Positions 5,155 through 21,315 of a stretch of 34,375 nt of DNA are shown here, one piece after another. The stretch is from positions 1-34,375 of IMG/VR virus record IMGVR_UViG_3300029448_000178; one strand, written 5' to 3'. The notes beneath the pieces were generated by a model. It saw only the letters and a list, made by a program, of their open reading frames with translations. It ran no database searches and was not told the origin of the DNA. The translations under genes and the position numbers were made by a program. How positions within the stretch are numbered: position 1 is the stretch's first letter; each line of letters starts with the position of its first letter. This stretch comes from a virus.

Positions 5155-5403
5155 CTATCGAGCCAGAGGATTATCTGATCTAGCTTTCATCTCATCAATA
5201 ACAGTCTTCAAAACTTTTATTTCAGCAGCATTGATCTGTATATCTTTTGTTTGACCTGATATGGTTTGCTCTAATGGTTTAAGATCAGGTGCTTGCCTAG
5301 CCTCTAAAACTTCTACTCTTTCGATTAGCTTGCCTTGGAAGATTAGTAGCCCACCTAATGTGATCACCAGTCCGACAGCTCCAGTTATTGTTTTAATATC
5401 CAC
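5155..5403 (-). CDS. Membrane-anchored coiled-coil protein, 82 aa
   Basis: Reading begins at GTG 5403, eleven bases inside the end of the upstream gene. Residues about 6-24 form one hydrophobic, glycine-rich membrane segment (ITGAVGLVITLGGLLIFQG); the rest (25-75) is a charged heptad-like helix. The layout of N-terminal anchor plus coiled coil resembles inner-membrane spanins or holin accessory proteins, and the gene ends the secretion/lysis-like cluster at 5155-8367. No overlapping second spanin gene was seen, so the spanin reading is only a possibility. Confidence 0.6.
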   Translation of the reverse strand: MDIKTITGAVGLVITLGGLLIFQGKLIERVEVLEARQAPDLKPLEQTISGQTKDIQINAAEIKVLKTVIDEMKARSDNPLAR

Positions 5404-7156
5404 GTATTATCTTCAGCTCCTCTTCAGCTCTTATTCTATTCGCAACAGCATCTTCAACCTTTTTTTGGTATTGAGCCATGCGGTCATTATATGGGTTTTG
5501 AATCTCAGCATATAGGTTTCTATTGTCTGAGTAATCTCTCGTATAGAAGTCATCCAAGGTTCCTCCATCTATTTCTAGTTGATCATTAAATATATTCTCA
5601 TTGAGAGTTCCATAAGAGTCAATCCTTTTGTTGTTGGATTGCATTGCTTTAGCAACGATCATTTGTGTAGCAACGATTTGTTTGTCAATAGATTTGATCT
5701 GTTTTGCTACCTGATCTTGTACGCTTGCTATGTCTATCGAAATACCTCCTTGATCTTCTGCACCATTTTCCACAACCTCCTCTGTAACAGGCTCGGCTGA
5801 TTCTGTTGTGATTTCCTCAGATCCAGATACTCTTGTCTCGCCTGCTCCACTTTCTCGTTCATCTGATCCGACCAGGTTTTCTTCTTCTGGACTCTCTTGC
5901 TGGTTGCTTTCAGTTTGTGTTTCGCTTTCGTTTCTGGCGACAGTTTCACTTTCTGGGGCAGGTTCTCTGGTGTTCCCTGCGATACGAGTTTCGTTGCTTT
6001 CAGTTCCTGGCTCTCGTTCATTTTCTCCGCTAGTGTTTTCGACCTCTTGGATAGTTTCATTTTCTGTCTCGTTGTTAAAACTTTCCCTTGTTTCTGTAAT
6101 GTCTTCTGTTCTTTCGATTTCTGCTGTGAACGTCTCGATGGTCTGTGGTTCTTCATATCTTTGTACCTCCATTGATACTTCAGGTAGCTCTTCAAATTCC
6201 TCGATCTCCGCTACCTCTTTGATCTCCCCTGGTGGTGGTAAATTAAATACATTTACTATTCCAGTGTTGATCTCTTCTGTAGTTAATTCTTGTATAAATA
6301 TTTCCTCGAATGTTTCGATGATCATTCTTGGTTCTTCAAAAGGAATAAAAATTATTTCCTCGATAGGTTCAAACTCAACCTTTTCGATCCTGGTTTCTAT
6401 GACCTCTTCGATTTCTTCAAAGGCTGTGTTGAGTTCTGTGCCAACGCTTGTGCAGGTACCTAATTGCTGACAGCCTGTAGTCTCTCCAAGGGTAGTAATA
6501 GATAGCTGAACATTATCTACATCTGGACCTCTATGATAACTATCATTGTTTGATCCATCGCCTTGATTATATAGCTCGGCTCTTATTGTTATGTCTGTTT
6601 GTGAGTTCGGACTTTGTATGTAGCTATCTGTATAGTTTGTAAACGTGCCACCATTAAAGTTTCTTGTTGGATCGTGGTCATTTATTGTTCTCGATTGCGT
6701 TGTGATAGAACCATCAGATCCTGTAATTGTTTGTTTTAAAGTTAATGTATTCTCAATGCTGTTCCAAAACCATACATCTGCTGACAAAGTTGAGGTAAAT
6801 CCCTCGTTGATTTGTGATTGTGTTAGATGACCATGTTTAACTAATGCACTATCTTGGAACACGTTGTCTTCTACATAACCCTCGAAAGCTAAAACGCCCC
6901 CTGTTTGATCCATATTTGCACCATAAGGGAAAGTACCGAAGTTGCCATGTGTATGTATACCATCTGAACCAGTTGTCAACCAACCTGTGGTTGTCGTAGT
7001 ATTGTTTGATCCAAAGGTAGAATTGGAAAGTATATTGCCTGTTGTAGTAACACAAGTTCTATCACCTAGAGTGTTAGTCGTACAGTTTGTCTCAGCAACA
7101 GCTGTGCTTATCATCAACAGCAGTACTGTACTAATCTTCTTCATCATCATCATCAA
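5393..7156 (-). CDS. Secreted, highly acidic protein with jelly-roll-like N-terminal part, 587 aa
   Basis: The start is a run of ATG codons followed by Lys-Lys and a hydrophobic core ending AVA, a clear signal peptide (about residues 1-21). Residues about 35-225 are Thr/Asn/Gly-rich and strand-like, with GVLAFEGYVEDNVFQ and a closing DVDNVQLSIT, reminiscent of carbohydrate-binding jelly-roll modules. Residues about 235-490 form an extreme Glu/Thr/Asn low-complexity region. The C-terminus (about 490-587) is helical. Export to the periplasm or outside is expected. Function is unknown: candidates are envelope disruption at lysis, a surface or superinfection role, or a virion-associated adhesin. 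Which ATG of the opening run is used is uncertain. Confidence 0.7.
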   Translation of the reverse strand: MMMMMKKISTVLLLMISTAVAETNCTTNTLGDRTCVTTTGNILSNSTFGSNNTTTTTGWLTTGSDGIHTHGNFGTFPYGANMDQTGGVLAFEGYVEDNVFQDSALVKHGHLTQSQINEGFTSTLSADVWFWNSIENTLTLKQTITGSDGSITTQSRTINDHDPTRNFNGGTFTNYTDSYIQSPNSQTDITIRAELYNQGDGSNNDSYHRGPDVDNVQLSITTLGETTGCQQLGTCTSVGTELNTAFEEIEEVIETRIEKVEFEPIEEIIFIPFEEPRMIIETFEEIFIQELTTEEINTGIVNVFNLPPPGEIKEVAEIEEFEELPEVSMEVQRYEEPQTIETFTAEIERTEDITETRESFNNETENETIQEVENTSGENEREPGTESNETRIAGNTREPAPESETVARNESETQTESNQQESPEEENLVGSDERESGAGETRVSGSEEITTESAEPVTEEVVENGAEDQGGISIDIASVQDQVAKQIKSIDKQIVATQMIVAKAMQSNNKRIDSYGTLNENIFNDQLEIDGGTLDDFYTRDYSDNRNLYAEIQNPYNDRMAQYQKKVEDAVANRIRAEEELKIIRGY

Positions 7157-8389: not shown

Positions 8390-9073
8390 TTAATAAGCCA
8401 TATGTTTTATTCGTGGAGATTCTTCTAAAAAATCATTAACCCACCTTATTAGTTTGGCATTGTGTACATCATAGGGTTCTACAAATACCTTGCTTTTATC
8501 CAGTTTATTAAGGTCTATAATATCATCACAATTATTTAATGTAGTGTTTAAATCATAATAATTAGCTTTTACAGGTACATATTCAATTTCAAAAAATGCA
8601 CATATTCTTCTGCAAACATTGTTTGGATCATTAAACAAGTCTTGACTATTTACAAAAATAATATCTTTTGAATCATTCATATACTTAACATAATTTAACC
8701 ATATATACGCTCTAGTGGTTGTTTGATGTAACACTCCAACAAGTTTTTCTGTAGCCTTATTATACTTTTCTAATAACTCTGGTTTATAAGGGTGATTAAA
8801 AAAGTTTTTATAAACATCAAATCCTATGCCTCTTTCTTTTCTACCATTTTTAAGTAAATCGCTATATAAAGTTCTGTATAAAAATACTTTTTTACCTCCA
8901 TGTTTAAGAACTTTGTATGCCTCCATGCTTGGATATTTAACTAAACAGTTTGGTTTTTCTATTATTTCATCCTTTCTACACCAAGTAGGTTCTGAATATG
9001 TTGGTATAGATTTACTTAACAGACACGCTAAATAAGTTGAGCCACAATGACTTGTATGCCAAATACTATACAT
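8390..9073 (-). CDS. Sulfotransferase-like protein, 227 aa
   Basis: The N-terminus HTSHCGSTYLACLLS (residues 6-20) matches the phosphosulfate-binding loop of PAPS-dependent sulfotransferases, which move a sulfate group onto a hydroxyl or amine. KVFLYRTLYSDLL (62-74) fits the strand and helix carrying the conserved Arg and Ser (Arg67, Ser71) that bind the 3'-phosphate. VNSQDLFNDPNNVCRRICAF (141-160) matches the typical 'YEDL..DP......FL' region. The substrate is unknown. It is the last gene of an AT-rich, GATC-poor cassette that differs from its surroundings and includes two oxygenases that could create hydroxyl acceptors. It lies just downstream of the tail-fibre genes. Confidence 0.72.
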   Translation of the reverse strand: MYSIWHTSHCGSTYLACLLSKSIPTYSEPTWCRKDEIIEKPNCLVKYPSMEAYKVLKHGGKKVFLYRTLYSDLLKNGRKERGIGFDVYKNFFNHPYKPELLEKYNKATEKLVGVLHQTTTRAYIWLNYVKYMNDSKDIIFVNSQDLFNDPNNVCRRICAFFEIEYVPVKANYYDLNTTLNNCDDIIDLNKLDKSKVFVEPYDVHNAKLIRWVNDFLEESPRIKHMAY

Positions 9074-9632
9074 TTTGTACCTTGTCTAAGTCGATAAGTT
9101 TATATGCTAAAGTAACTCTTAAATCATTAAATGCAATTGAAATAGGAGTAGCATGATGAGTAATGTCTGCTTGAAAATATACAGCAGACCAAGGTTTAGG
9201 ATATATTATTTCATAATCATCTTCATCTTTTTTAAATGCTGTATATCCACCCCATTCACTTTTCCACTCAGAGTTACAATAAATTAAAAAAGTTACTTCT
9301 GATCTACTTAAAGTTGGATTATCAACCATACCTGTAATACCTGTATCTTTATGCTCATATCCAAATGAGCCAGCTGTATGACCATTAAAATAAATTCTTT
9401 GAAATGCTAAATTATTTCCTGTTATTTTTTTAATTTTATTAAAAAGAGTATGAGTAAAAAAGGAATCAAGCTCCAATGGTTCTCTCATAGCCCAAAAACT
9501 ATAATTAGCACTGTGTTTGGACTTTTGACCATATGCCCAATTGTTAGTCTTAATTTTTTTACGAATAGTATCAATGTCATCTTGACCTAAAAAATCATTA
9601 AACTTTTTTATCATTTGAAAAATCTGCCTCAT
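9066..9632 (-). CDS. 2-oxoglutarate/Fe(II)-dependent oxygenase, 188 aa
   Basis: The double-stranded beta-helix signature is present: His94-Lys-Asp96 as the HxD iron ligands, a distal histidine in DITHHATPI (His159 or His160) and Arg172 in LRVTLAYKL for binding 2-oxoglutarate. The core WGGYTAF and WSAVYFQADITHH segments resemble prolyl-4-hydroxylase-type enzymes. Such enzymes hydroxylate protein side chains or small molecules using oxygen and 2-oxoglutarate. The gene overlaps the previous oxygenase by 35 bases and the sulfotransferase by eight. A start at ATG 9614 (six codons later) is possible and would reduce the first overlap. Substrate is unknown. Confidence 0.8.
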   Translation of the reverse strand: MRQIFQMIKKFNDFLGQDDIDTIRKKIKTNNWAYGQKSKHSANYSFWAMREPLELDSFFTHTLFNKIKKITGNNLAFQRIYFNGHTAGSFGYEHKDTGITGMVDNPTLSRSEVTFLIYCNSEWKSEWGGYTAFKKDEDDYEIIYPKPWSAVYFQADITHHATPISIAFNDLRVTLAYKLIDLDKVQNV

Positions 9633-10197
9633 TTCTACATAACCAATTTATGATACAATACCTACCCTCTCCATGAATTAAATCTTTTCTGTTCATTTTA
9701 ATTGGTCTAACTCCATGTTGTAATCCACTACCAAACATAACAAATTTATTATAGGTACACTCTATTTCTGTATCTATTTCTGGAAAATATAAGTTGCCTC
9801 CTGTAAATTGTTTAGGTTGTTTATACAAATATATACAGCTTGTAAATTGTGCAAAGTCTGTATGAGGCTTATATTCCTGACTATCTTCATAATACTTTAT
9901 AGTGGGAATTAGGTCAGTAGCTGCATCTATATTGCCATATAAAACATTTAATTTTTTAACTTCTGTTTTTAAGTCTTCATTTAAAAAAATTTTATTCCAA
10001 CAAATTTGAGATATGCTTGAAAATTGTCTTTCTTTAAATATAACTCTAGGGTTATATGACAAGTGATTGGTTTTTTCTAATTGAGAACCTGAATCTAAAG
10101 ATGATATAAGTCTATAAGGACTTGTCGCCCACTCTAATTCTTTCCAAACTAATTTTAACTCATCTTCAGTAAAAAAATTATCAATAGTATAAATCAC
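9598..10197 (-). CDS. 2-oxoglutarate/Fe(II)-dependent oxygenase, 199 aa
   Basis: GTG 10197 starts this gene, four bases after the previous stop codon begins. The iron and co-substrate residues are visible: His112-Thr-Asp114, distal His161 in GSGLQHGVRPI and Arg179 in GRYCIINWL, with GGNLYFPE (133-140) as the usual central strand. The fold matches prolyl-hydroxylase-like oxygenases. It differs clearly from the adjacent oxygenase, so the two are not a recent duplication. Both sit between the tail-fibre tip genes and a sulfotransferase, suggesting modification of a fibre, a host surface molecule or a metabolite. Confidence 0.82.
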   Translation of the reverse strand: MIYTIDNFFTEDELKLVWKELEWATSPYRLISSLDSGSQLEKTNHLSYNPRVIFKERQFSSISQICWNKIFLNEDLKTEVKKLNVLYGNIDAATDLIPTIKYYEDSQEYKPHTDFAQFTSCIYLYKQPKQFTGGNLYFPEIDTEIECTYNKFVMFGSGLQHGVRPIKMNRKDLIHGEGRYCIINWLCRNEADFSNDKKV

Positions 10198-10997: not shown

Positions 10998-11798
10998 CTA
11001 AACTTCCTCCAATTTAAATTTATATTTTTTACCATTGTTTCTGTTTATAAGAAACAAATTATTTGAACCCTCTTGAATTGTCCATGAACCAGATGTACCA
11101 TCTACCTCATTTTTTCTTGTATGTGTATTATTTAAATTCAAGTCTCCTGTATATACATCTCTAAATACTTTAGAACTAGAACCTAAATCATAAGCGTCAT
11201 TAGTGGCTGGAATAAGTGCTGTGCTTGTAACTGATAGCACATCTGAGTTTCCTACTTTAATGTCTATTTGATCGTCTGTATCTGCTGTAATTGAGCTGTC
11301 TCCATCTACATCTAATATTAGTTCGTTACCATTCATATCAACAGTGTTGCCATTAGCATCTAATGTTCCACCAAGTTGAGGTGTTGTATCGCTAACAACA
11401 TTTGCTAAAAATCCTGAATCATTGGTAAACATACTAATGTTTCCAGATTTGTTGGTAAGCGTATCTGTTGAAGACGCAGTAAATGTAATATTAGAAGTAA
11501 GGGCAAATGTGCCTGTACCACCAGGAATTGTGTGTGTATTTACTGTACCTAAATTTGTTATGTTATTTGATTGTGCGTCTAATGCTCCGCCTAGTTGTGG
11601 TGTTGTGTCTTCTACGACATTCGCTATACTTCCTGAAGCTATTTCAGAAAATTTAGCTAGTCTTTCTCCACCAGCAGTAGAGCCATCATGCACTCTTAGT
11701 GTTTTTAAATCAGTATCAACAGTTACTTCTCTTACAGAACCTGTAAACGAGCCATGTGCAGATGTTGTACCTCCTCTTAATTGTAGTTTTTTAGCCAT
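10998..11798 (-). CDS. Tail-fibre segment protein, 266 aa
   Basis: The start MAKKLQLRGGTTSAHGSFTG, followed by an EVTVDTDLKTLRVHDGSTAGG block, is the small domain seen at the N-terminus of many phage fibre and tropism proteins. Two copies of the module V-x-DTTPQLGG-x-LD follow (about residues 60-80 and 135-155); a third copy ends the upstream fibre gene. The rest is strand-rich with NDAYDLGSSSKVFRDVYTGD, a typical beta-helix shaft or tip segment. The ATG overlaps the preceding stop (ATGA), so it is co-translated with the main fibre. Confidence 0.75.
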   Translation of the reverse strand: MAKKLQLRGGTTSAHGSFTGSVREVTVDTDLKTLRVHDGSTAGGERLAKFSEIASGSIANVVEDTTPQLGGALDAQSNNITNLGTVNTHTIPGGTGTFALTSNITFTASSTDTLTNKSGNISMFTNDSGFLANVVSDTTPQLGGTLDANGNTVDMNGNELILDVDGDSSITADTDDQIDIKVGNSDVLSVTSTALIPATNDAYDLGSSSKVFRDVYTGDLNLNNTHTRKNEVDGTSGSWTIQEGSNNLFLINRNNGKKYKFKLEEV

Positions 11799-13582
11799 TA
11801 TGTTATACCTCCAAAGTCTAGCTGTAAGTTAGTACCATCTATTGTACCAATGTTGCTCATGTTGTTATTTTGCCCATCTAATGCACCACCTAATTGTGGC
11901 GTAGAATCTTCTACAACATTAGCTATGCCAGCAGTTATACTAGCCCATGCACTACCATTGTAAAATTTTAATTGATTATCTGTTGAATTATATGCTAAAT
12001 CACCCTCATCTAAACTAGATGTTGGATCGCTTGAACCTACTCTGTATCGTTCAGCAAAGCTATTAACTCCAGATATATTGGTAGCTACTGTATTTATATT
12101 TGTAACTGCACCAGCTACTGTAGAAATATTTGAATTAGCTCCAGCTACTGTTGTAATGTTTGAATTTGCTGACGCTACTGTATTAACATTTGATATTGCT
12201 CCAGCAACTGTACCAATATCTGTAGCGTCTCCAGCTACTGCTGTTACATTTGATGAAATGCCAGCTACTGTTGTTATGTTACCTGATATTCCAGCGACTG
12301 TATTTACATTGGCTATATCTGTAGCAACAGTATTTATGGTATTTCCAGAGCCAGTTGTTATTGCTCCTAAATCTCCTAAGTCTTCTGTAAATAATATTTG
12401 ACCAGCCACTGCATTAATGTTTGTTGCATTGCCAGCAACTGATGTAACGTTTGTGCTGATACCAGCAACTGTAGCTACCTCAGTAGATACTCCAGCAACT
12501 GTTGATATGTCACTCGAGCTTAGTCCAGACAATGCAGTAATTTCACTGCTTTGATTAGCTACTGATGTTACATCGCTAGATATACCAGCAACTGTTGTAA
12601 CATTAGCTTGAATTCCAGCTACTGTGTTTATATTAGATAAACCGCCTGCTACTGTATTAACATTGGAAATACTGCCACCAACATTATTTACATTGGTTAT
12701 AGCTCCAGCTACAACTTCTATTTCTGATGATGTTTCATTTAGATCATCAGCTACAGTTTCTATTTCAGATACTGCCTCAGCTAAATCATTTGCTACAGCT
12801 ACTACTTTAGTTATGTCCGCAGCGACTGTATTAACTGAGGTTATGTTTGTAGCTACTGTGTTAATGTTAGTAGCATTGCTAACCGCAGAATTTATGTTGC
12901 TAGCATTAGATACTGCTGCATTTATATTACTTGCATTTGATACTGCTGAATTTATGTTACTAGCATTAGATACTGCTGAGTTTATGTTACTTGCATTTCC
13001 AGCAACAGATGTAACATTGCTTGATATACCAGCGACTGTAGTTATATCAGATGCTATGCCAGCCAAGGTGTCAATGTTGGTTGTTGTGGATCCTAGCTCA
13101 AACGCATTTCCTGATGAATTAAATTTGATAATTCTGTTGGCGTTACTGCTCTCTGTGTTGTTATAGGGTAACTCCAGGGGCGTTGTTGCGTCTGTGTTTA
13201 TTGGTAAAGTAAAAGCTCTGTCTACCCTTTCTGATAATTGTGAGATCAGCAAAGTTTGTGAGTTTAATTCGTTTTCAAGTGATGCTGCTGTAAGCGGTCC
13301 TCCAGACGTAAAAGCTGTGGTCCTGCTGATAGATCTATCACCTATGATTGTAACTAAAACCCCAGTGCCTGGCGTATTCCCAGTAGTCGTTGTAATGGAT
13401 CCTGTGCCATCTGATCCGATAGTAACTGTATAGTGAGTGGTCAGCGTCTTTTTAGTGCCATCGAAGTAAACAGCTATATCTGCTGCTGCCTCTATAACAA
13501 AAGTAAAGGCAAAGCTCGTGGTCGAGTTGTTACCTGTATACTGTACTCGCCTGGTCGTACTGGTTATGGCGTTTAGTGCCAT
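11798..13582 (-). CDS. T7-type tail fibre with long repeat shaft, 594 aa
   Basis: Residues about 1-130 resemble the virion-attachment domain of T7 gp17-like fibres: strand-rich sequence, LTTHYTVTIGSDGTGSI, then SLENELNSQTLLISQLSERV. Residues about 150-520 are an almost pure series of short repeats such as NI-x-TVAG-x-x-x-N or SNASNINSAV, expected to form a long trimeric shaft. The end contains VVEDSTPQLGGALDGQNNN, the same module found twice in the next protein. At 594 aa it is near the size of T7 gp17 (553 aa). It follows the internal virion genes as in T7. Confidence 0.85.
   Translation of the reverse strand: MALNAITSTTRRVQYTGNNSTTSFAFTFVIEAAADIAVYFDGTKKTLTTHYTVTIGSDGTGSITTTTGNTPGTGVLVTIIGDRSISRTTAFTSGGPLTAASLENELNSQTLLISQLSERVDRAFTLPINTDATTPLELPYNNTESSNANRIIKFNSSGNAFELGSTTTNIDTLAGIASDITTVAGISSNVTSVAGNASNINSAVSNASNINSAVSNASNINAAVSNASNINSAVSNATNINTVATNITSVNTVAADITKVVAVANDLAEAVSEIETVADDLNETSSEIEVVAGAITNVNNVGGSISNVNTVAGGLSNINTVAGIQANVTTVAGISSDVTSVANQSSEITALSGLSSSDISTVAGVSTEVATVAGISTNVTSVAGNATNINAVAGQILFTEDLGDLGAITTGSGNTINTVATDIANVNTVAGISGNITTVAGISSNVTAVAGDATDIGTVAGAISNVNTVASANSNITTVAGANSNISTVAGAVTNINTVATNISGVNSFAERYRVGSSDPTSSLDEGDLAYNSTDNQLKFYNGSAWASITAGIANVVEDSTPQLGGALDGQNNNMSNIGTIDGTNLQLDFGGIT
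12871..12990. repeat. Four tandem 30-bp repeats in the fibre shaft
   Basis: Units at 12871-12900, 12901-12930, 12931-12960 and 12961-12990 differ at only a few bases and encode a 10-residue period (SNINSAVSNA-like) in the fibre. The wider region, about 12060-13080, is a more diverged set of related repeats. Such tracts can gain or lose units by slippage and so change fibre length. Confidence 0.85.
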
Positions 13583-13584
13583 TG

Positions 13585-16500
13585 TTAGTTACCCTCCAAT
13601 ATATCTCTTAATGGTTCTATATTACGTTTATTTACTGTGTTATTCAAATATAATGCCTTTTCCTTAAGATCAGGATACATGATTGTTAGTAGCCTTTGAG
13701 GTCCATCTAGGGGGATAGTATCTAAATCTTCTAGGCTGCGTTGTTTTTGTGCAGACTTTCCAAGCGTGTGAAAGTTGGTCTGTCTACTGATCATCTTGCT
13801 CCTAGCTGTATCTGTAATATCATCATCATTCCCATATAAGAAATACTCTTCGCTTTTGATCAGGCTCCTTAGTCTGTCCTTATAAGTTTCTCCTGATGTG
13901 AAAAATTCGTAGTATTCTGGACTTAAAGCCGCAGCAGCCTCTATTTTTTGATCCTCGGATAACTCGCTAAAGTCTCCATTGATAAATCTAACAAAGCTAT
14001 TTTTCTGATCAGAGTTAAGAGGAATCTTAAATCCTTGCATACTAATATAGTTTGGATGTCTTCTGGGCGGACTACCCAATCTTTCCATTTCGCCCATGAC
14101 TCCTATAATGTCTATCATAGATGTCCATGAGCTAAATCCTTTTATGTCTCTTGCATTTGCTATCTCGTTTGCCCTTTTGTTGTTAAACATTAAAGGCAGA
14201 GAAGAAAAGTCATCTTCATTAAATAAACCAAAGTCTATTAGTTCTTGCCTGTTATAAGGTAGATCCCTACTAGCTATTGGTGAATAGGTAACAGCCCAGT
14301 CTCCACCTACTCTAGGATCGTTATACGCTTGTTCTCCCCAATAGTTTAATTTTCTTGGCAAAACTTTTCTGTCAATCTTTTTATCTATTTCGTTTTGAAA
14401 GTCTATTGCAAACTTCTCTAAAGAGGTTTCTCCTACGTTCCTGTCTTTTTCAGGAACCATATCGTAAGATCCATCTCCATTGTCTATAAAAATCATATCA
14501 ACGCCTTCCTCGTTTTTCATTCTAAAAACAGCAGGTAACTCGCCAGATCTTGCTATAACGTTACCATCCTCGTCTTGATCAAATAATTGTTCAATGTTTG
14601 CTCCAAATCTGCCAGTAAATGGCACAAAGTTAGCTAAAGACTTAGCTCCCCACCTAACAAATTTATCTGTAGCCATTTGCTCTGACGTAAATATTTCAGT
14701 GAAGTCTGCTATATTTACAGCAAAAGAGCTATCTGCTATTTTTCCAAAAACATTAAAAGTGAATTTAACCATAGCCTCACCCAATGCTTTTTCATCATCT
14801 ACTGATTCGATAAGCTGTGCTATTGCATAACCATTACTTAAGAAAATGCCTAATGGATCTAGTCTGTCTATCGCATAGGACTTGTCTTTGCCATCATGTA
14901 GTTCGCCCAGATATTTACCCTCTGGATCAATAGATCCCCAAGGAATAACAATGCTGTAGTCTTGTGGACCATTTCTTAATATTGACATTTTCCTGCTTGT
15001 TTGTGTATTCATGCCTTGTGGGCTACCGCCTTGCACGTATCCATTCATAGCTCCCATGATAAAAGGCAATGTTAGAAGATGCGAAGTAATCAAGTGTCCT
15101 TTAGCCATGTCTCTTTGTATTGGATCTGGCGATCTTAACATTTTGCCGAGTTTGCCAATATCTGCTCCTGCTAAAATTGCATTGATTCCAGGGGTTACTT
15201 CTAAACCTACTTTGGTTAAGTTATAAAGGGTGTTGAAAAATGGCACTAATACTTTTGCGAAACCTTCACCCAATGCTCCTGACACACCACCTCCTTTGTC
15301 TTCTTTTAAAAATCTATTTATAGACTGACCTATCTTATCCATAGGTCTTTGCAACACTGTCTCTCTTGCAACGTCCATGCTTTCGATTCTAATCTCTGGT
15401 GCTTGTTTACTAGGATCATTCATTATTTCATCCATCCTTTTGCTAAAATCTTTTGCTGGTAAAGCCCCAGATGCCACTTCTTCTGATACCTGTTTGTATG
15501 CGTAAGTATGTAGCTGGGATCTGTAAAAAATATATTTCATAAAATCATCCCCAGACTTCATCATCCTAGGGGCTATTCTGGTGCTAATATCTAGTATAGA
15601 ATCTATGATCTGGAAAAAAGGTTCGTCTGCTAAATATTCTGGATTGTTTTCTAGCTTTTCTCTTACGCTTGATCCTGCTTTGCTTTTACCTAGAGTAAGT
15701 CTGTCTTTGTTTTTAATTGTATTGTAGACAATATTTCTTGTAGTAATTTTTCCCTGAGTTCCTCCATAAGGTATTTTAGAAAACGTATCAATAGATTTGC
15801 CAGTTAGAAGAGAAGATCCTCCTATTCGCAAGCCATCAAATATAGATGCTATATAACCATAATAACTTGATAATCCATTTTCAAAAGTAAGACCTCCTGT
15901 GTCTTTTCCCATAACCTTATTTCTAATAGATCCATAACCTCCTCCCATTAATCTGCTCATGTGCCAAAAGTGTTGATACACAAGTCCTGCACCTAAATTA
16001 ACAGATTGTGTCGTTACGCCATTTAGTAAGTTGTTGTAGTAAACCTGGTATAGCATTGACCTGGTTGTTGCTAGATTTATTTCTCTAGCCCCTTTAGCCG
16101 CCCTTGTAGGATCTCTATCTATAATTCCATATAGAGCCTCAAGTTTAGATTCTGTCATTTCTCTGCCTTCTGTTTTATCGAAGATGTCTTTTAGTGCTGC
16201 GTCTTCATCTCCTATATTATCTAGGGATCCCTTCATGGTTTTAAGTATTCTAAATGATCTACCAATCTCTGCCCTAGCTCCCATGATCTGGTTTGTTAAA
16301 GCACTGTAGGTTTGTGTCATTTGCATGGCAAAAATCTTTTCTCTATCACCAGCTCCATCTGACATAGCTTTTTTGAGAGACTTATGTAAGGCTACTCTGA
16401 ATCTTTTTAAAAGTTCTATAGATCCATACATTTGCTCTACATTGTAGATATCTCCTATGTTTCTACGTAGTACATCGTCTATTTGTAAATTTAGCTCACC

Positions 16501-16905
16501 TGCTAAATCTTTGACTACCTTGTCTTTTAGAACGCCTTTTCTGTCTCCACGTCTACCCTTGATTCTAGCTTTTTCGTAGTATTTGCCTATAACCTCTATA
16601 ACAGCATCTACCTCACCAGGATCTTTAACTTTATACCAAAGGCTGTTTTTGTATGAGTTGAAATCGTCAGGGAACAGTTCTTTTGGCAGATCTCCATTGT
16701 CCATTGCTTTGAGCAAGTTATTCATAAACTTAGGATCTAGCGTTTGCTCTATTGATTTCTCAGACTTGCCTATAATATCTTGTGATTTTTTTTGTGTTTG
16801 CACAGTTTTTTCTGTAGCACTATCCATCTCTGGAATATTTTTTGTCATCCAGGCACTTACTTTATCTGCTATTTCTTGTGAGTTGAAGTTACCAAATCTT
16901 GACAT
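13585..16905 (-). CDS. Large internal virion (ejection) protein, gp16-like position, 1106 aa
   Basis: This is the largest protein and lies just before the fibre gene, the position of T7 gp16 (1318 aa), which is ejected into the cell and helps form the DNA channel. It is mostly helical and charged. YYNNLLNGVTTQSVNLGAG (about 289-307) and RMMKSGDDFMKYIFYRSQL (about 447-465) resemble segments of large phage core proteins. A hydrophobic stretch (about 605-623) could insert in a membrane. The N-terminal lytic transglycosylase of T7 gp16 is not visible. Its ATG overlaps the end of the 605-aa gene. The role rests on size and gene order. Confidence 0.72.
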   Translation of the reverse strand: MSRFGNFNSQEIADKVSAWMTKNIPEMDSATEKTVQTQKKSQDIIGKSEKSIEQTLDPKFMNNLLKAMDNGDLPKELFPDDFNSYKNSLWYKVKDPGEVDAVIEVIGKYYEKARIKGRRGDRKGVLKDKVVKDLAGELNLQIDDVLRRNIGDIYNVEQMYGSIELLKRFRVALHKSLKKAMSDGAGDREKIFAMQMTQTYSALTNQIMGARAEIGRSFRILKTMKGSLDNIGDEDAALKDIFDKTEGREMTESKLEALYGIIDRDPTRAAKGAREINLATTRSMLYQVYYNNLLNGVTTQSVNLGAGLVYQHFWHMSRLMGGGYGSIRNKVMGKDTGGLTFENGLSSYYGYIASIFDGLRIGGSSLLTGKSIDTFSKIPYGGTQGKITTRNIVYNTIKNKDRLTLGKSKAGSSVREKLENNPEYLADEPFFQIIDSILDISTRIAPRMMKSGDDFMKYIFYRSQLHTYAYKQVSEEVASGALPAKDFSKRMDEIMNDPSKQAPEIRIESMDVARETVLQRPMDKIGQSINRFLKEDKGGGVSGALGEGFAKVLVPFFNTLYNLTKVGLEVTPGINAILAGADIGKLGKMLRSPDPIQRDMAKGHLITSHLLTLPFIMGAMNGYVQGGSPQGMNTQTSRKMSILRNGPQDYSIVIPWGSIDPEGKYLGELHDGKDKSYAIDRLDPLGIFLSNGYAIAQLIESVDDEKALGEAMVKFTFNVFGKIADSSFAVNIADFTEIFTSEQMATDKFVRWGAKSLANFVPFTGRFGANIEQLFDQDEDGNVIARSGELPAVFRMKNEEGVDMIFIDNGDGSYDMVPEKDRNVGETSLEKFAIDFQNEIDKKIDRKVLPRKLNYWGEQAYNDPRVGGDWAVTYSPIASRDLPYNRQELIDFGLFNEDDFSSLPLMFNNKRANEIANARDIKGFSSWTSMIDIIGVMGEMERLGSPPRRHPNYISMQGFKIPLNSDQKNSFVRFINGDFSELSEDQKIEAAAALSPEYYEFFTSGETYKDRLRSLIKSEEYFLYGNDDDITDTARSKMISRQTNFHTLGKSAQKQRSLEDLDTIPLDGPQRLLTIMYPDLKEKALYLNNTVNKRNIEPLRDILEGN

Positions 16906-18722
16906 TATTGAAATACCTCTCTCATATTTATGTTTAGGCTGCCTTCTATTTCTCTTAGCTTAACAAGAGTCCTGCCATATACCCTAGTAATATATCTTTC
17001 TTGAGCAGGCGTAAATACATATACAGACATTAGTTTTTTAGCAGGACTATAATAAGCCTTATGCTGTTCGTCTAAAATGTCGTTAGCATATTTAGGTCTA
17101 AGTTGTAGCTCAGTGCTAATTCCTAAATCGTGCTTAATTTGTATATGTATTGATCTGAGTTCTGGTTTGTAATCTATCTCTAATACATTAAAGTTTTGTT
17201 GTATTTTAGATATAACGTTTTTTGCCTGTGTTGAAAACTCGACAGGATTATTAAATACCATTCTTTGACCTAGATAATCTCCTATTTCATTTGGTTTTTT
17301 ATTTTGTCTTTTCAGCTTATCTTCCAGCCCTTGAGAATCTTTTACCCTAGATTCTATTTTTATATCTAAATCTGATGCTACGTTTTTTACTTTATCATCA
17401 AGGTTGTTTTGATTTTCCTTGGCTATTTTTAATATTTCATCTGTGGTATCATAGTCTTGTATGGAACGATTACTAATACCACCATCAGTTGTAGATGGAT
17501 CAGTTGTTGGGTTATCCAAAGACTCAATGTCGTCTGTTCTTTGGGACGAAGGTACGTCTTCATTTAAGTCAGGTGATGGTCTCTTTACAGTTGCAGAGGT
17601 AGCTGACGCACCTCCAGCATCATCTAAACTCCTAGAATCTGTAGGATTAACGTCTGATAAGTTCGAGGTACTTGCAACATCTTCTCCTGATCTTACAGAC
17701 TGAATATCTTTTCTAACTTTAGTTAGAGATTCCATGTCAGATCTAGCTGGATCTACTGTCCCTCTACTTTCAAGGAAATTGTCATAGAACGATTTTGTTC
17801 CCATGTTGTCTTGATTGACAGCTGTGTTCATGTGTTCTTTTGCTTTTGCTACAAACTCTGGAAATTGTGATGCTATTTTTACAGTAGCAAATATTGATGA
17901 TATAACTGCTCCAATGAAAATGCCTTCTGCGGTTTGTTTACCTCTAGCTGCAAATTTTGCTTTTATGTCTTTTTCAAACTGATCAACCTCTTCTGGTCTA
18001 CTATCTAAAGCCTGTATAAATTCATTGGCAACGCCCATTTCTACCAATACACTTGATAGATTTCCATGAGTAGGATCAAACATAAAATCTGCAACAGCAC
18101 CAGCTGAGTAATGCCTGAATAAGTTACCTCCAGCTGTTGTTGCTTTTGTCATTTTCAAAAACGACACATAAGGAACCATAAACGAGAATATTCCAGATAA
18201 AACATTTCCTGTTGTAGACTGAGGAGCATCTACTAAATCTAGCTTATATGGCTCATAGCCTTCGCCTAAATCGTCAAGCTCCTGTCTTGTTAAATAATCA
18301 AATTCCCCATCGTTGTATACAAAAGCTCCTACACCAGTAAGTCTGTCTAGGTCTTCACCTAATACAAATATGTTATTAGCCGCTGACTGTATGCCATGCC
18401 CTATAGTTGTAAGAGCCTCTTCAACAAATCCATTTTCTTTTTCGTCAAATTCTATGGTTTCTGTTAAGATCTTAGCTGATTCATAGTTCCCATCTTTTAC
18501 AGCAGTATTGACAAGATCTATGTTATCTTGCCTTTCTTTAGCTATTGATAAGTTTTCTGGTTTTTGCATATTGTTTTCATAATGCCTAAGCTGCACTGCT
18601 CGATCAATATGATCAGCTCCATCTAGGTTATCAACATGATTTCTACGATCCTGAACATTTACGTCTTTTTCTATCGGTCCTGGATATACATTTATTGGGG
18701 CTAGATCTATTGTTTCACTCAT
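16905..18722 (-). CDS. Internal virion protein with C-terminal RelA/SpoT-like domain, 605 aa
   Basis: Residues 1-310 are helical and contain two hydrophobic segments (about 175-192 and 267-287), as expected for an ejected membrane-active virion protein. A Ser/Thr/Asp-rich linker (about 320-430) leads to a compact domain at about 440-560 that matches the (p)ppGpp synthetase fold. Visible signatures are SRVKDSQGLEDKL (Arg459, Lys461), GDYLGQRMVF (Asp482, Arg487), RSIHIQI (His526), ELQLR (Glu538, Gln540, Arg542) and EQHKAYY (His554). No hydrolase (HD) domain is present. The gene lies between the gp15-like and gp16-like genes with overlapping stop and start codons, a place where T7 has no gene. 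It may deliver nucleotide pyrophosphokinase activity at infection. The usual Tyr before the SIH motif is Leu here, so activity is unproven. Confidence 0.72.
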   Translation of the reverse strand: MSETIDLAPINVYPGPIEKDVNVQDRRNHVDNLDGADHIDRAVQLRHYENNMQKPENLSIAKERQDNIDLVNTAVKDGNYESAKILTETIEFDEKENGFVEEALTTIGHGIQSAANNIFVLGEDLDRLTGVGAFVYNDGEFDYLTRQELDDLGEGYEPYKLDLVDAPQSTTGNVLSGIFSFMVPYVSFLKMTKATTAGGNLFRHYSAGAVADFMFDPTHGNLSSVLVEMGVANEFIQALDSRPEEVDQFEKDIKAKFAARGKQTAEGIFIGAVISSIFATVKIASQFPEFVAKAKEHMNTAVNQDNMGTKSFYDNFLESRGTVDPARSDMESLTKVRKDIQSVRSGEDVASTSNLSDVNPTDSRSLDDAGGASATSATVKRPSPDLNEDVPSSQRTDDIESLDNPTTDPSTTDGGISNRSIQDYDTTDEILKIAKENQNNLDDKVKNVASDLDIKIESRVKDSQGLEDKLKRQNKKPNEIGDYLGQRMVFNNPVEFSTQAKNVISKIQQNFNVLEIDYKPELRSIHIQIKHDLGISTELQLRPKYANDILDEQHKAYYSPAKKLMSVYVFTPAQERYITRVYGRTLVKLREIEGSLNINMREVFQ

Positions 18723-20767
18723 TATTGATCTCCAAATAATATTCTGTATCTTTCTTTTTCTGCCATAGGCACTACATCACTTGTCATTAATAAGTCTTGT
18801 ATGGTGTCAGAGTTAAGTTCAAATACAAAATTATCTTTTTTGTAATATGTTCTGCCTAGCACAAATTTTATATTTGAAGTTTCTAGTAATTTTTTTTCTG
18901 CATTTATATCATCCATATTAAATACTTTTAACTTTTCTTGCTCTTCTGCAATGCTTTGTAGTATAGGCTCCCTTTCTTCTTCTGATGTAGCTTTTGCTAG
19001 TTTATTTCTTTGCTGTCTTATTTTCTCTGTTATGATTTCAAATCTTTTTAGTTCATCTGATTTTTCTTTACCAGATCCAGCAAGCGTATTAAATGTCTGT
19101 TTGTCTGTTGCAATGTTTTTTGTTTGTGAAAGATCATCAATTATTCTGCCAATATGGTTTGAATTAACATCTTGTGTACTAAAGTTAAAACCTTCTCCTT
19201 CAAGACCTAAGTGTAAATCGCTATATATTCCTCTTAATTCTTTTGTGTTGTCAGTCGATCCAAAATTGATGAATCCCATACCTCCTTCTGACTTTGTAAT
19301 ATGTTTCATACCTCTTTTGTATATATCATCATCTGTATAATCTCTTCCTCCTAGCTGGTAATTAATGGCACTTTCAATAATCTTTGCTTTTGATTTTCTA
19401 GTAAGTGATGAAGAATAAAGCATTTCACTGTAGTCTAACTCGCCATCTCTTGCTTGTTTCATGTATTCCATAAGGATTACAGCATCATCGCTAGGTCCTG
19501 AGTTTTTATCGAGCAATAATTCACGCAGGGGATCAGTAACTTTTTTGGCATCAAATGTTGGATAATCTCTTTCTAGTTGCTTTATTCTGGAAAAAATAAC
19601 ATCTTCTGTAGTTCTGTTTTGCTGTCCTTGATCTAAGTAATTAAAAATATCTGTTATAACAGTTTTTGATTCTTGTTTTAATAGATTAAGATTTTTCGAG
19701 TTTTCTTTTTCTGTAAGAGAATTAAGTTTTTCTGTTTCAAAAATAACTTGTTTATATATCTCGTCAGCTAGCTCGTTTCTTTGCTTTTCGCTAAAACCTA
19801 GTTGAGATATCGTGGTCTCTTTGTTGCCAAGTATTGTAGATCCATCTTGAGCCATCATGGGTTCGTAAAAATCTTTAGTTACATATTCGCCAGTCCTAAT
19901 TGCTGATAGTTCTTTAACCAAGCCAGTTACGTCTCCATGCTCAAACTGGTTCGTAAACTTGTCAGCAAGATAATGATATTGGAATCTTGTTCTTGCGTAC
20001 AAAAGCTCTTTGTTCATTTTTTCAGCACTAAATAAATTTGTTCTGGTAGGATCAGCACTGAATGATACTCCTGCTGCTATAAATTCTGTGGATGGTCCAT
20101 GTTGTATGTAGTTACCAAAAGCACCATTTATAAATTTACCTACATTGATAGCCGATTGAGGACTATTTCTATATGTTTCAAACATACTCTCTATATGACC
20201 AGAATCTACGATATTTCTAAAAGACGTGCTTACAATGTCTTCTTGTTGTTTTGCATAATTAGCATATACATTTTTACTAGCTGCAAAAATCTTTTGATCA
20301 AAATCATATCTAAAATAATCAAACATAGCTGGGTTTTTTTCTTGTATTGATGACAATAACCCATCTCTAATGTCTGTTGTTTCTGCGTTAAAAGCATTGG
20401 GATCGTATTTGTTTTTTAAAAATGCTGTTTGTAGTTTTTGTTGAAACAAAGTATCTATCTGATACTTAGCGTTTTGTTGTGCCGCTTTGTAATAAGTCGT
20501 ATCGTAATCTGTGGTTCCTCTTTGCGGTGCATCGTTAAATGTTAAACTTCCATCTTGCTCTTGCCTAAATGCTTGGTACTTTTCTGCGTCTTGTCCTGCT
20601 CTAAGTTGGCTCTCTTTCGATACTTGTTTTATAGCCACGTTTGTAAGCTGATTGATTCTGTTCGATAAATTACCAAACATCCTCTCTTCGCCTGTTCCAA
20701 TCTGGACTCCAGGCACAGTTCTAAGCGATGCTCCTAATGGTTTATATTTTATATTTTTTACTGCCAT
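18722..20767 (-). CDS. Internal virion protein, gp15-like position, 681 aa
   Basis: The size and place (after the gp14-like gene) match T7 gp15 (747 aa), an internal core protein ejected into the periplasm to build the DNA channel. The sequence is largely helical, soluble and charged, with long Gln/Lys/Glu-rich helices, a tyrosine-rich region near residues 85-200 and no signal peptide. No catalytic motif was recognised. Both ends overlap neighbours by one base, tying it into a single translated block of ejection proteins. Confidence 0.68.
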   Translation of the reverse strand: MAVKNIKYKPLGASLRTVPGVQIGTGEERMFGNLSNRINQLTNVAIKQVSKESQLRAGQDAEKYQAFRQEQDGSLTFNDAPQRGTTDYDTTYYKAAQQNAKYQIDTLFQQKLQTAFLKNKYDPNAFNAETTDIRDGLLSSIQEKNPAMFDYFRYDFDQKIFAASKNVYANYAKQQEDIVSTSFRNIVDSGHIESMFETYRNSPQSAINVGKFINGAFGNYIQHGPSTEFIAAGVSFSADPTRTNLFSAEKMNKELLYARTRFQYHYLADKFTNQFEHGDVTGLVKELSAIRTGEYVTKDFYEPMMAQDGSTILGNKETTISQLGFSEKQRNELADEIYKQVIFETEKLNSLTEKENSKNLNLLKQESKTVITDIFNYLDQGQQNRTTEDVIFSRIKQLERDYPTFDAKKVTDPLRELLLDKNSGPSDDAVILMEYMKQARDGELDYSEMLYSSSLTRKSKAKIIESAINYQLGGRDYTDDDIYKRGMKHITKSEGGMGFINFGSTDNTKELRGIYSDLHLGLEGEGFNFSTQDVNSNHIGRIIDDLSQTKNIATDKQTFNTLAGSGKEKSDELKRFEIITEKIRQQRNKLAKATSEEEREPILQSIAEEQEKLKVFNMDDINAEKKLLETSNIKFVLGRTYYKKDNFVFELNSDTIQDLLMTSDVVPMAEKERYRILFGDQ

Positions 20768-21315
20768 TACCTAAATATACTCATAAATCCTTGATTAGCT
20801 GGCTGTATTGTTTGCCCTCTGCTATCCATCAATGTTCTGCCTGCTACATTACCGCCCTGGTTTCCAAGACCGCTGAATCCGCCTGCCTGATATATAGATG
20901 CTGATCCCATAGCCATTGTTGTAAGTGCGTTTGTCATCCCTTGTTTTTTGGCTATCCTTCCTTCATACCTTAACATCTCTGCCTGGTGTTGAGACATATC
21001 GAGTGCAATAGTTTGGTTATAGCCATTAATATTAAATTCCCTTATGCCTTTAGACTGTAAAGACAAACCAACCCCCAGCTTAGATCCAGAAAATGGATCA
21101 ATAGATCCTGCTCCAGCATAAGCGTTTGCGTAAGACATCTGTTCAAGCATATTGTCTAAAATTTTTACTCCATCCATTTTGTGTTTTACCGCTTGACTCC
21201 TGCCTTGCAATTCTACTAATTCCGCTTGCCTATCAAGCCTGTCTTGTTGTGCTTTACCTTGCTGGTATTGCGAATATGCCGACATGGCTGTTAATGCTAA
21301 TGCTGCGTATTGCAT
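20767..21315 (-). CDS. Internal virion protein, gp14-like, 182 aa
   Basis: The start (MQYAALALTAMSAYSQYQQG) is a short hydrophobic helix followed by a Gln/Lys-rich helix, and later parts are Ala/Gly/Met-rich (ALTTMAMGSASIYQAGGFSG). That composition and size fit T7 gp14 (196 aa), which is ejected first and makes the outer-membrane pore. It directly follows the nozzle gene, as expected in T7-like order after gp12. The assignment rests on pattern and position. Confidence 0.72.
   Translation of the reverse strand: MQYAALALTAMSAYSQYQQGKAQQDRLDRQAELVELQGRSQAVKHKMDGVKILDNMLEQMSYANAYAGAGSIDPFSGSKLGVGLSLQSKGIREFNINGYNQTIALDMSQHQAEMLRYEGRIAKKQGMTNALTTMAMGSASIYQAGGFSGLGNQGGNVAGRTLMDSRGQTIQPANQGFMSIFR

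Follow-up and report, generated by a model that had tools for sequence, protein, structure and literature searches.

The window analyzed here is the complete IMG/VR virus record IMGVR_UViG_3300029448_000178 (34,375 bases), from a marine virus of bacteria, and the subject is the gene for a 605-amino acid (aa) protein (hereafter, the slot protein) located between a gp15-like and a gp16-like gene, an arrangement that had been claimed in the original prediction and is confirmed by the open reading frame (ORF) and its neighbors. The C-terminal domain of this protein (the cargo) is, by profile comparison and structural modeling, a RelA/SpoT-fold nucleotidyltransferase, and the N-terminal part (the carrier) is homologous to a portion of phage internal virion proteins. 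With ejection and activity both predicted, the slot protein has about an even chance of being a delivery protein that travels in the virion and bears a swappable effector at its C-terminus. The genes and domains of the locus are as follows:

16905..18722 (-): gene for the 605-aa slot protein; a single ORF with carrier (residues 1-300), linker (301-433) and RelA/SpoT-fold cargo (434-605)
17823..18722 (-): carrier (residues 1-300), containing two hydrophobic stretches and related by homology to the N-terminal region of the gp16-like internal virion protein D
17424..17822 (-): polar linker, residues 301-433, by composition (26% Ser+Thr, net charge -13)
16908..17423 (-): predicted RelA/SpoT-fold cargo domain, residues 434-605 (profile-PDB comparison, AlphaFold, Foldseek, VIA-align, residue alignment)
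13585..16905 (-): 1106-aa gp16-like internal virion protein, directly downstream (PHROG 6651, E 1.2e-4; match to P0007 residues 546-1004)
18722..20767 (-): 681-aa protein, gp15-like by position, between the gp14-like and slot genes; no clear family match
20767..21315 (-): 182-aa gp14-like internal virion protein (PHROG 418, internal virion protein, E 2.7e-11)

The ORF of the slot protein overlaps each of its neighbors, upstream and downstream, by one base (TAATG). The cargo is preceded by hydrophobic segments at residues ~171-192 and ~263-287 and then by the Ser/Thr-rich, acidic linker, in agreement with the membrane-type segments and polar linker that had been proposed to lie ahead of this domain.

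The Pfam RelA_SpoT profile (PF04607) covers residues 458-559 (E 1.6e-6) with 28.8 bits, compared with a curated cut-off of 27 bits, and the homolog from one of the related contigs (these are designated by L and a number), L046, independently passes the cut-off with 33.9 bits. When a profile of five phage homologs was compared with the PDB, all significant matches were (p)ppGpp synthetases (best E 1.7e-7); a single-sequence PDB search found nothing, so that only the profile succeeded. The AlphaFold (AF2) model of the cargo, built on an alignment of the same five homologs, has a predicted local distance difference test score (pLDDT) of 86.3 and a predicted template modeling score (pTM) of 0.82. 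The first 48 Foldseek matches of this model in the PDB are alarmone synthetases, Tas1 and CapRel, with a probability of 1.00 throughout, and the VIA-align Z scores are 13.8 for RelQ/RelP, 13.5 for an exported Streptomyces synthetase, 11.9 for Tas1 and 11.6 for CapRel. The claim of RelA/SpoT motifs in the C-terminus is thereby borne out by concordant Pfam, profile and model evidence, and the predicted structure is of the RelA/SpoT type rather than a different fold. Chance or artefact as the source of the motifs is ruled out because the domain recurs, together with the motifs, across independent contigs. The strongest matches in the viral library include phage proteins annotated as RelA/SpoT, DdrB-like or ART-PolyVal-like as well as unnamed ones of up to 1321 aa; hence, relatives are already deposited, with their function not worked out. 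Searches of the 605-aa protein against PHROGs, NCBIfam and PADLOC yielded nothing useful, and the Rel domains of L046 and L050 had no tblastn match among INPHARED phages.

The active site was examined by reference to FaRel2, the residues of which were taken from PMC11782079 and mapped via alignments and residue spacing, FaRel2 itself being outside the alignment. The correspondences (FaRel2 to window) are R64-R459, K66-K461, S70-G465, K74-K469, R77-R472, D90-D482, G93-G485, R95-R487, E145-E538 and Q147-Q540. The predicted ATP/Mg2+ donor residues in the window are R459, K461, K469, R472, D482, G485, R487, E538 and Q540, with G465 at the serine position. Across 13 aligned cargo sequences, which are not independent but form four groups (window/L001/L005, the L012 clade, the L096 clade and L046), residues K461, K469, D482, H526, E538, Q540, R542, P543 and H554 are invariant; the L096 clade contains K in place of R487. 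The ratio of nonsynonymous to synonymous substitution rates (dN/dS) in the cargo is 0.11-0.35 across the pairs compared, with few counts in the closest pairs and synonymous sites near saturation for window-L001. As judged from these alignments, the putative Mg2+-binding Asp and catalytic Glu are retained under purifying selection in all 13 cargo domains.

In short-tailed phages, the DNA passes through a channel built by proteins that the particle ejects. Sequence matches (tblastn E down to 8e-8, blastp 6e-13) link the carrier to the N-terminal part of roseophage and pelagiphage proteins annotated by homology as 'internal virion protein D'. Within P0007, a single polypeptide, residues 45-243 match the slot protein and residues 546-1004 match the 1106-aa protein, and L107 encodes the carrier part and the gp16-like part within one 1132-aa ORF. 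Because both parts are joined in these two cases, it looks as if a gp16-like protein had been split, with the slot protein as its N-terminal, cargo-bearing piece. Internal virion protein D, with an N-terminal part homologous to the carrier and a gp16-like remainder homologous to the next window gene, is one polypeptide without Rel cargo, whereas the window has two genes and the cargo on the first. The fusion of carrier and gp16-like part in internal virion protein D strengthens the placement of the slot protein in the ejection block. The layout of carrier, linker and effector put forward in the original prediction is likewise supported. Given this homology and the knowledge of T7 gp14-gp16, the ejected virion proteins that serve as the comparison (PMC8954989), the slot protein is probably packaged and ejected with the DNA. 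The gene order around the slot is conserved in L001, L005 and L012, as the suggested search of homologs was meant to reveal, and homologs of the 681-aa protein occupy the same place in these three loci and in L013. No match to the carrier was detected in 84,980 bacterial and archaeal species genomes, in a scan that relies on short conserved patterns.

A capsid-guided scan of IMG/VR identified 80 related loci, in 27 of which (with L001 and L005 left out of the count) the second gene after the gp14-like gene is readable, at least partly. In a few of these 27, e.g., L013 and L082, the second gene is gp16-like and there is no separate slot gene. The C-termini of the slot proteins are diverse: Rel-like in L012, L046 and L050; ART-PolyVal-like in L077 (28.4 bits, just under the cut-off of 31.2); a methyltransferase in L036 (29.2 bits, over the cut-off of 27); and DUF7178-like in L017 (26.0 bits, just under the cut-off of 27). 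The slot proteins of L075 (12808-15585) and L077 (10853-12895) share 276 N-terminal residues with 98% identity and have unrelated C-termini, that of L075 lacking a Pfam match. Conversely, the cargos of L022 and L076 are 29% identical over 333 residues, and their carriers do not match each other. Together, these sequence comparisons indicate that relatives exchange the C-terminal cargo of the slot, which is what one would expect if this part evolves in conflict with hosts. Nine more loci with Rel cargo (L089-L093, L095, L096, L098 and L099) came from a scan guided by the carrier. The L050-type Rel domain is present in seven contigs, that of L050 included, and L061 contains a region homologous to it (E 7e-20).

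Several other arrangements were observed at these loci. A common C-terminal cargo of ~320 aa, without a Pfam match, is attached to different carriers in L022 (7516-9540), L024 (16168-18198), L031 (9734-11824) and L076 (7359-10109). The proteins of L050 (13364-16543), L061 (17665-20829) and L085 (12773-16024) have a different N-terminal part of ~730 aa, ParB/DdrB-like by eye, and bear the distant Rel-like domain, which in L085 was recognized by eye only. The genes at 7180-8802 in L012 and 11980-15804 in L013 encode proteins that are 92% identical over the first 178 aa and then diverge, continuing as carrier plus Rel cargo in L012 and as a 1275-aa protein in L013; no match of the latter to the gp16-like protein of the window was detected.

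The Rel cargo of the window itself shows signs of such exchange. The nucleotide identity between the window and L001 is ~0.85 in the carrier, 0.66-0.75 at 17017-17467 and 0.93 just downstream. For the carrier, window and L001 are the closest pair (86% vs 78-79%), whereas for the cargo, L001 and L005 are 85% identical at the aa level and either is 58-60% identical to the window. Fourfold-degenerate sites differ between the window and L001 at 33 of 102 positions in the carrier and at 18 of 29 in the cargo (p=0.005); the same test for window-L005 is not significant (p=0.64). The best reading of these comparisons, good but not conclusive, is that the cargo was exchanged as an allele relative to the carrier. 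Fast evolution alone as the cause of the drop in identity at about residue 434 is judged less likely because fourfold-site differences rise as well relative to L001 and because carrier and cargo do not have the same closest pair.

Under the proposed delivery role, the carrier (residues 1-300) would place the slot protein in the particle and bring it through the envelope at DNA ejection, and the linker would allow the C-terminal domain to unfold and then refold in the host cytoplasm. The Rel domain might then use ATP as the donor of pyrophosphate, or of another group, for an acceptor, which would be held unlike in known alarmone synthetases and could be, e.g., an RNA end or an unusual nucleotide; the effect would be disturbance of host translation, nucleotide signaling or defense within the first minutes of infection. 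A stronger version, which we offer tentatively and with considerable doubt, is that marine podoviruses possess a dedicated swappable slot in the ejection machine and that the Rel-fold cargo represents a new type of ATP-dependent transferase, with an acceptor new among RelA/SpoT relatives, acting before phage genes are expressed.

Several observations weigh against an active delivered effector. The canonical acceptor-site motif is Y-R/Q-S-I/L-H. The corresponding segment of the window is E-L-R-S-I-H, with L522 at the tyrosine position, such that Y128, the acceptor residue of FaRel2, has no counterpart; the 'SIH' motif noted in the original prediction is indeed present, but the lack of the canonical tyrosine had been passed over. 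This G-loop tyrosine is absent in all 13 aligned cargo domains (L, T or I instead), and the more distant group of L050-type Rel domains has G-Y at the G-loop position (by eye). The L012 clade additionally lacks R459 and R487; of the residues whose loss in close relatives had been named as a challenge to the prediction, no sequence has lost the catalytic Asp or Glu, but these two arginines are gone from one clade. Furthermore, the metallopeptidase domain that is common in polyvalent proteins was not found, and the AF2 model of the carrier, obtained with 11 sequences, has a pLDDT of 38.7 and permits no statement on its fold. The ATP-using half of the predicted active site looks intact, and the residue for the second substrate is missing; the invariant residues and dN/dS values, set against the absent tyrosine, indicate a cargo that is selected but appears to have lost the usual acceptor site.

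Because of the missing tyrosine and the loss of R459 and R487 in the L012 clade, part of the Rel cargo family may be inactive, and it is conceivable, although we consider it rather unlikely, that the Rel domain has lost its activity and serves for binding or as a decoy, with ATP, RNA or host defense proteins of the Rel/toxSAS type as targets, or is a structural part of the ejection machine. There is a precedent in the inactive domain on the MuF protein of phage Mu described by Iyer et al. (PMC5512222). However, the Mg2+-binding Asp, the catalytic Glu and the donor-site Lys residues, invariant under purifying selection, would be needless for plain binding.

It appears quite improbable that the domain acts as a standard synthetase of (p)ppGpp or (p)ppApp, or as a toxSAS that pyrophosphorylates tRNA, and holds its acceptor without the tyrosine. 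The nearest solved folds, those of RelP/RelQ, Tas1 and CapRel, are compatible with such an activity, and RelA-like MuF toxin domains produce (p)ppApp (PMC12226406). Nevertheless, the G-loop tyrosine binds the acceptor base and is a conserved feature of the known alarmone synthetases and toxSAS; when it is replaced, FaRel2 is impaired and CapRel defense is abolished (PMC11782079, PMC9712102). An ordinary alarmone or toxSAS activity can therefore not be taken for granted: the fold part of the original proposal of an alarmone-like or toxSAS-like function holds, but the activity part is weakened. The cargo has the fold and the donor-site residues in common with RelP/RelQ and toxSAS (Tas1, FaRel2, CapRel) but differs from them in lacking the acceptor tyrosine, in residing in a large phage structural protein and in having no adjacent antitoxin gene; given the absent tyrosine, membership in either class is not claimed. 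Neither an antitoxin gene nor a fused antitoxin domain was found beside the Rel domain, the neighbors being the gp15-like and gp16-like genes, and there was no PADLOC match; no alarmone hydrolase domain was present among the window proteins scanned. Finally, it is highly improbable that the slot protein is not ejected and acts in the phage-producing cell, e.g., by slowing host metabolism or excluding other phages: as a late-operon gene product it would be made there anyway, but the homology of the carrier to a portion of gp16-like internal virion proteins and the conserved position inside the ejection block speak against this.

Returning to a delivered effector, publications from 2017 already described RelA/SpoT domains in polyvalent proteins of phages and in MuF fusions (PMC5512222, PMC5576092). 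Polyvalent proteins resemble the slot protein in that they are multidomain, are encoded beside virion genes and include RelA/SpoT among their swappable effectors (PMC5512222), a link reinforced by the ART-PolyVal-like domain in related slots; the slot protein differs in its gp16-related ejection carrier of marine podoviruses and in its Rel domain without the G-loop tyrosine. MuF polymorphic toxins, e.g., Apk2, likewise combine a virion-associated N-terminal carrier with a variable C-terminal toxin, RelA-like and ART included (PMC5576092, PMC12226406); delivery of these two kinds with phage DNA has been proposed, and toxin-bearing MuF proteins have been found in temperate phages only (PMC5576092). 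By contrast, the Pfam scan detected no MuF domain in the slot protein, and the gene directly downstream is the gp16-like gene, not an immunity gene. By analogy, the slot protein would work like an injected polymorphic effector. The novelty suggested in the original prediction is accordingly narrower: injected RelA/SpoT effectors as such were already described, and what appears to be new is the location of a swappable effector within the ejection block of a podovirus, no report of which was found in searchable papers, with subscription literature mostly outside the search.

The late genes of the window are of the podovirus type, with terminase, portal (Head-tail_con, E 2.3e-99), capsid (Phage_capsid_2, E 3e-66) and a tail tubular-type protein identified by Pfam and PHROG matches. 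Among isolated phages, Methylophilales phage MEP301 has the nearest major capsid protein (62.5%; PMC8024684); its genome layout is similar, but BLAST matched neither its gp24 nor its gp23 to the carrier, to the Rel domain or to the 1106-aa protein of the window. A small serine recombinase is encoded at 1874-2515 (Resolvase, E 4.5e-26), and a gene of the recombinase family is similarly placed in MEP301. Other genes include a slightly overlapping pair of 2OG-Fe(II) oxygenase genes at 9066-10197 (2OG-FeII_Oxy_3), adjoining the tail-fiber region; an Mtd_N (major tropism determinant N-terminal) domain protein at 10998-11798 (E 1.9e-11); a probable tail fiber at 11798-13582 with many short NINTVA/ITTVAG-type repeats, the number of which varies among relatives; and, at 5393-7156, a 587-aa protein with a long, low-complexity, Glu/Thr-rich middle and no convincing family match. 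The capsid protein is present in six contigs of metagenome-assembled genomes (MAGs), three of which are 31.6-34.5 kb, about phage size, and one 186 kb. The latter, L104 (186,520 bases, Hyphomicrobiales MAG), is far longer than these phages, encodes a related capsid protein (61%) and possibly carries a prophage.

If the slot protein is indeed a virion-carried delivery protein, the ejection machine would also deliver effectors before phage genes are expressed, and this in a marine virus group whose relatives are numerous in metagenomes. Inspecting the C-terminal region encoded by whichever gene lies between the gp15-like and gp16-like ones would be a simple rule for finding further effectors. 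Moreover, since the acceptor tyrosine is lost while the donor site stays selected, the question of the acceptor is directly testable.
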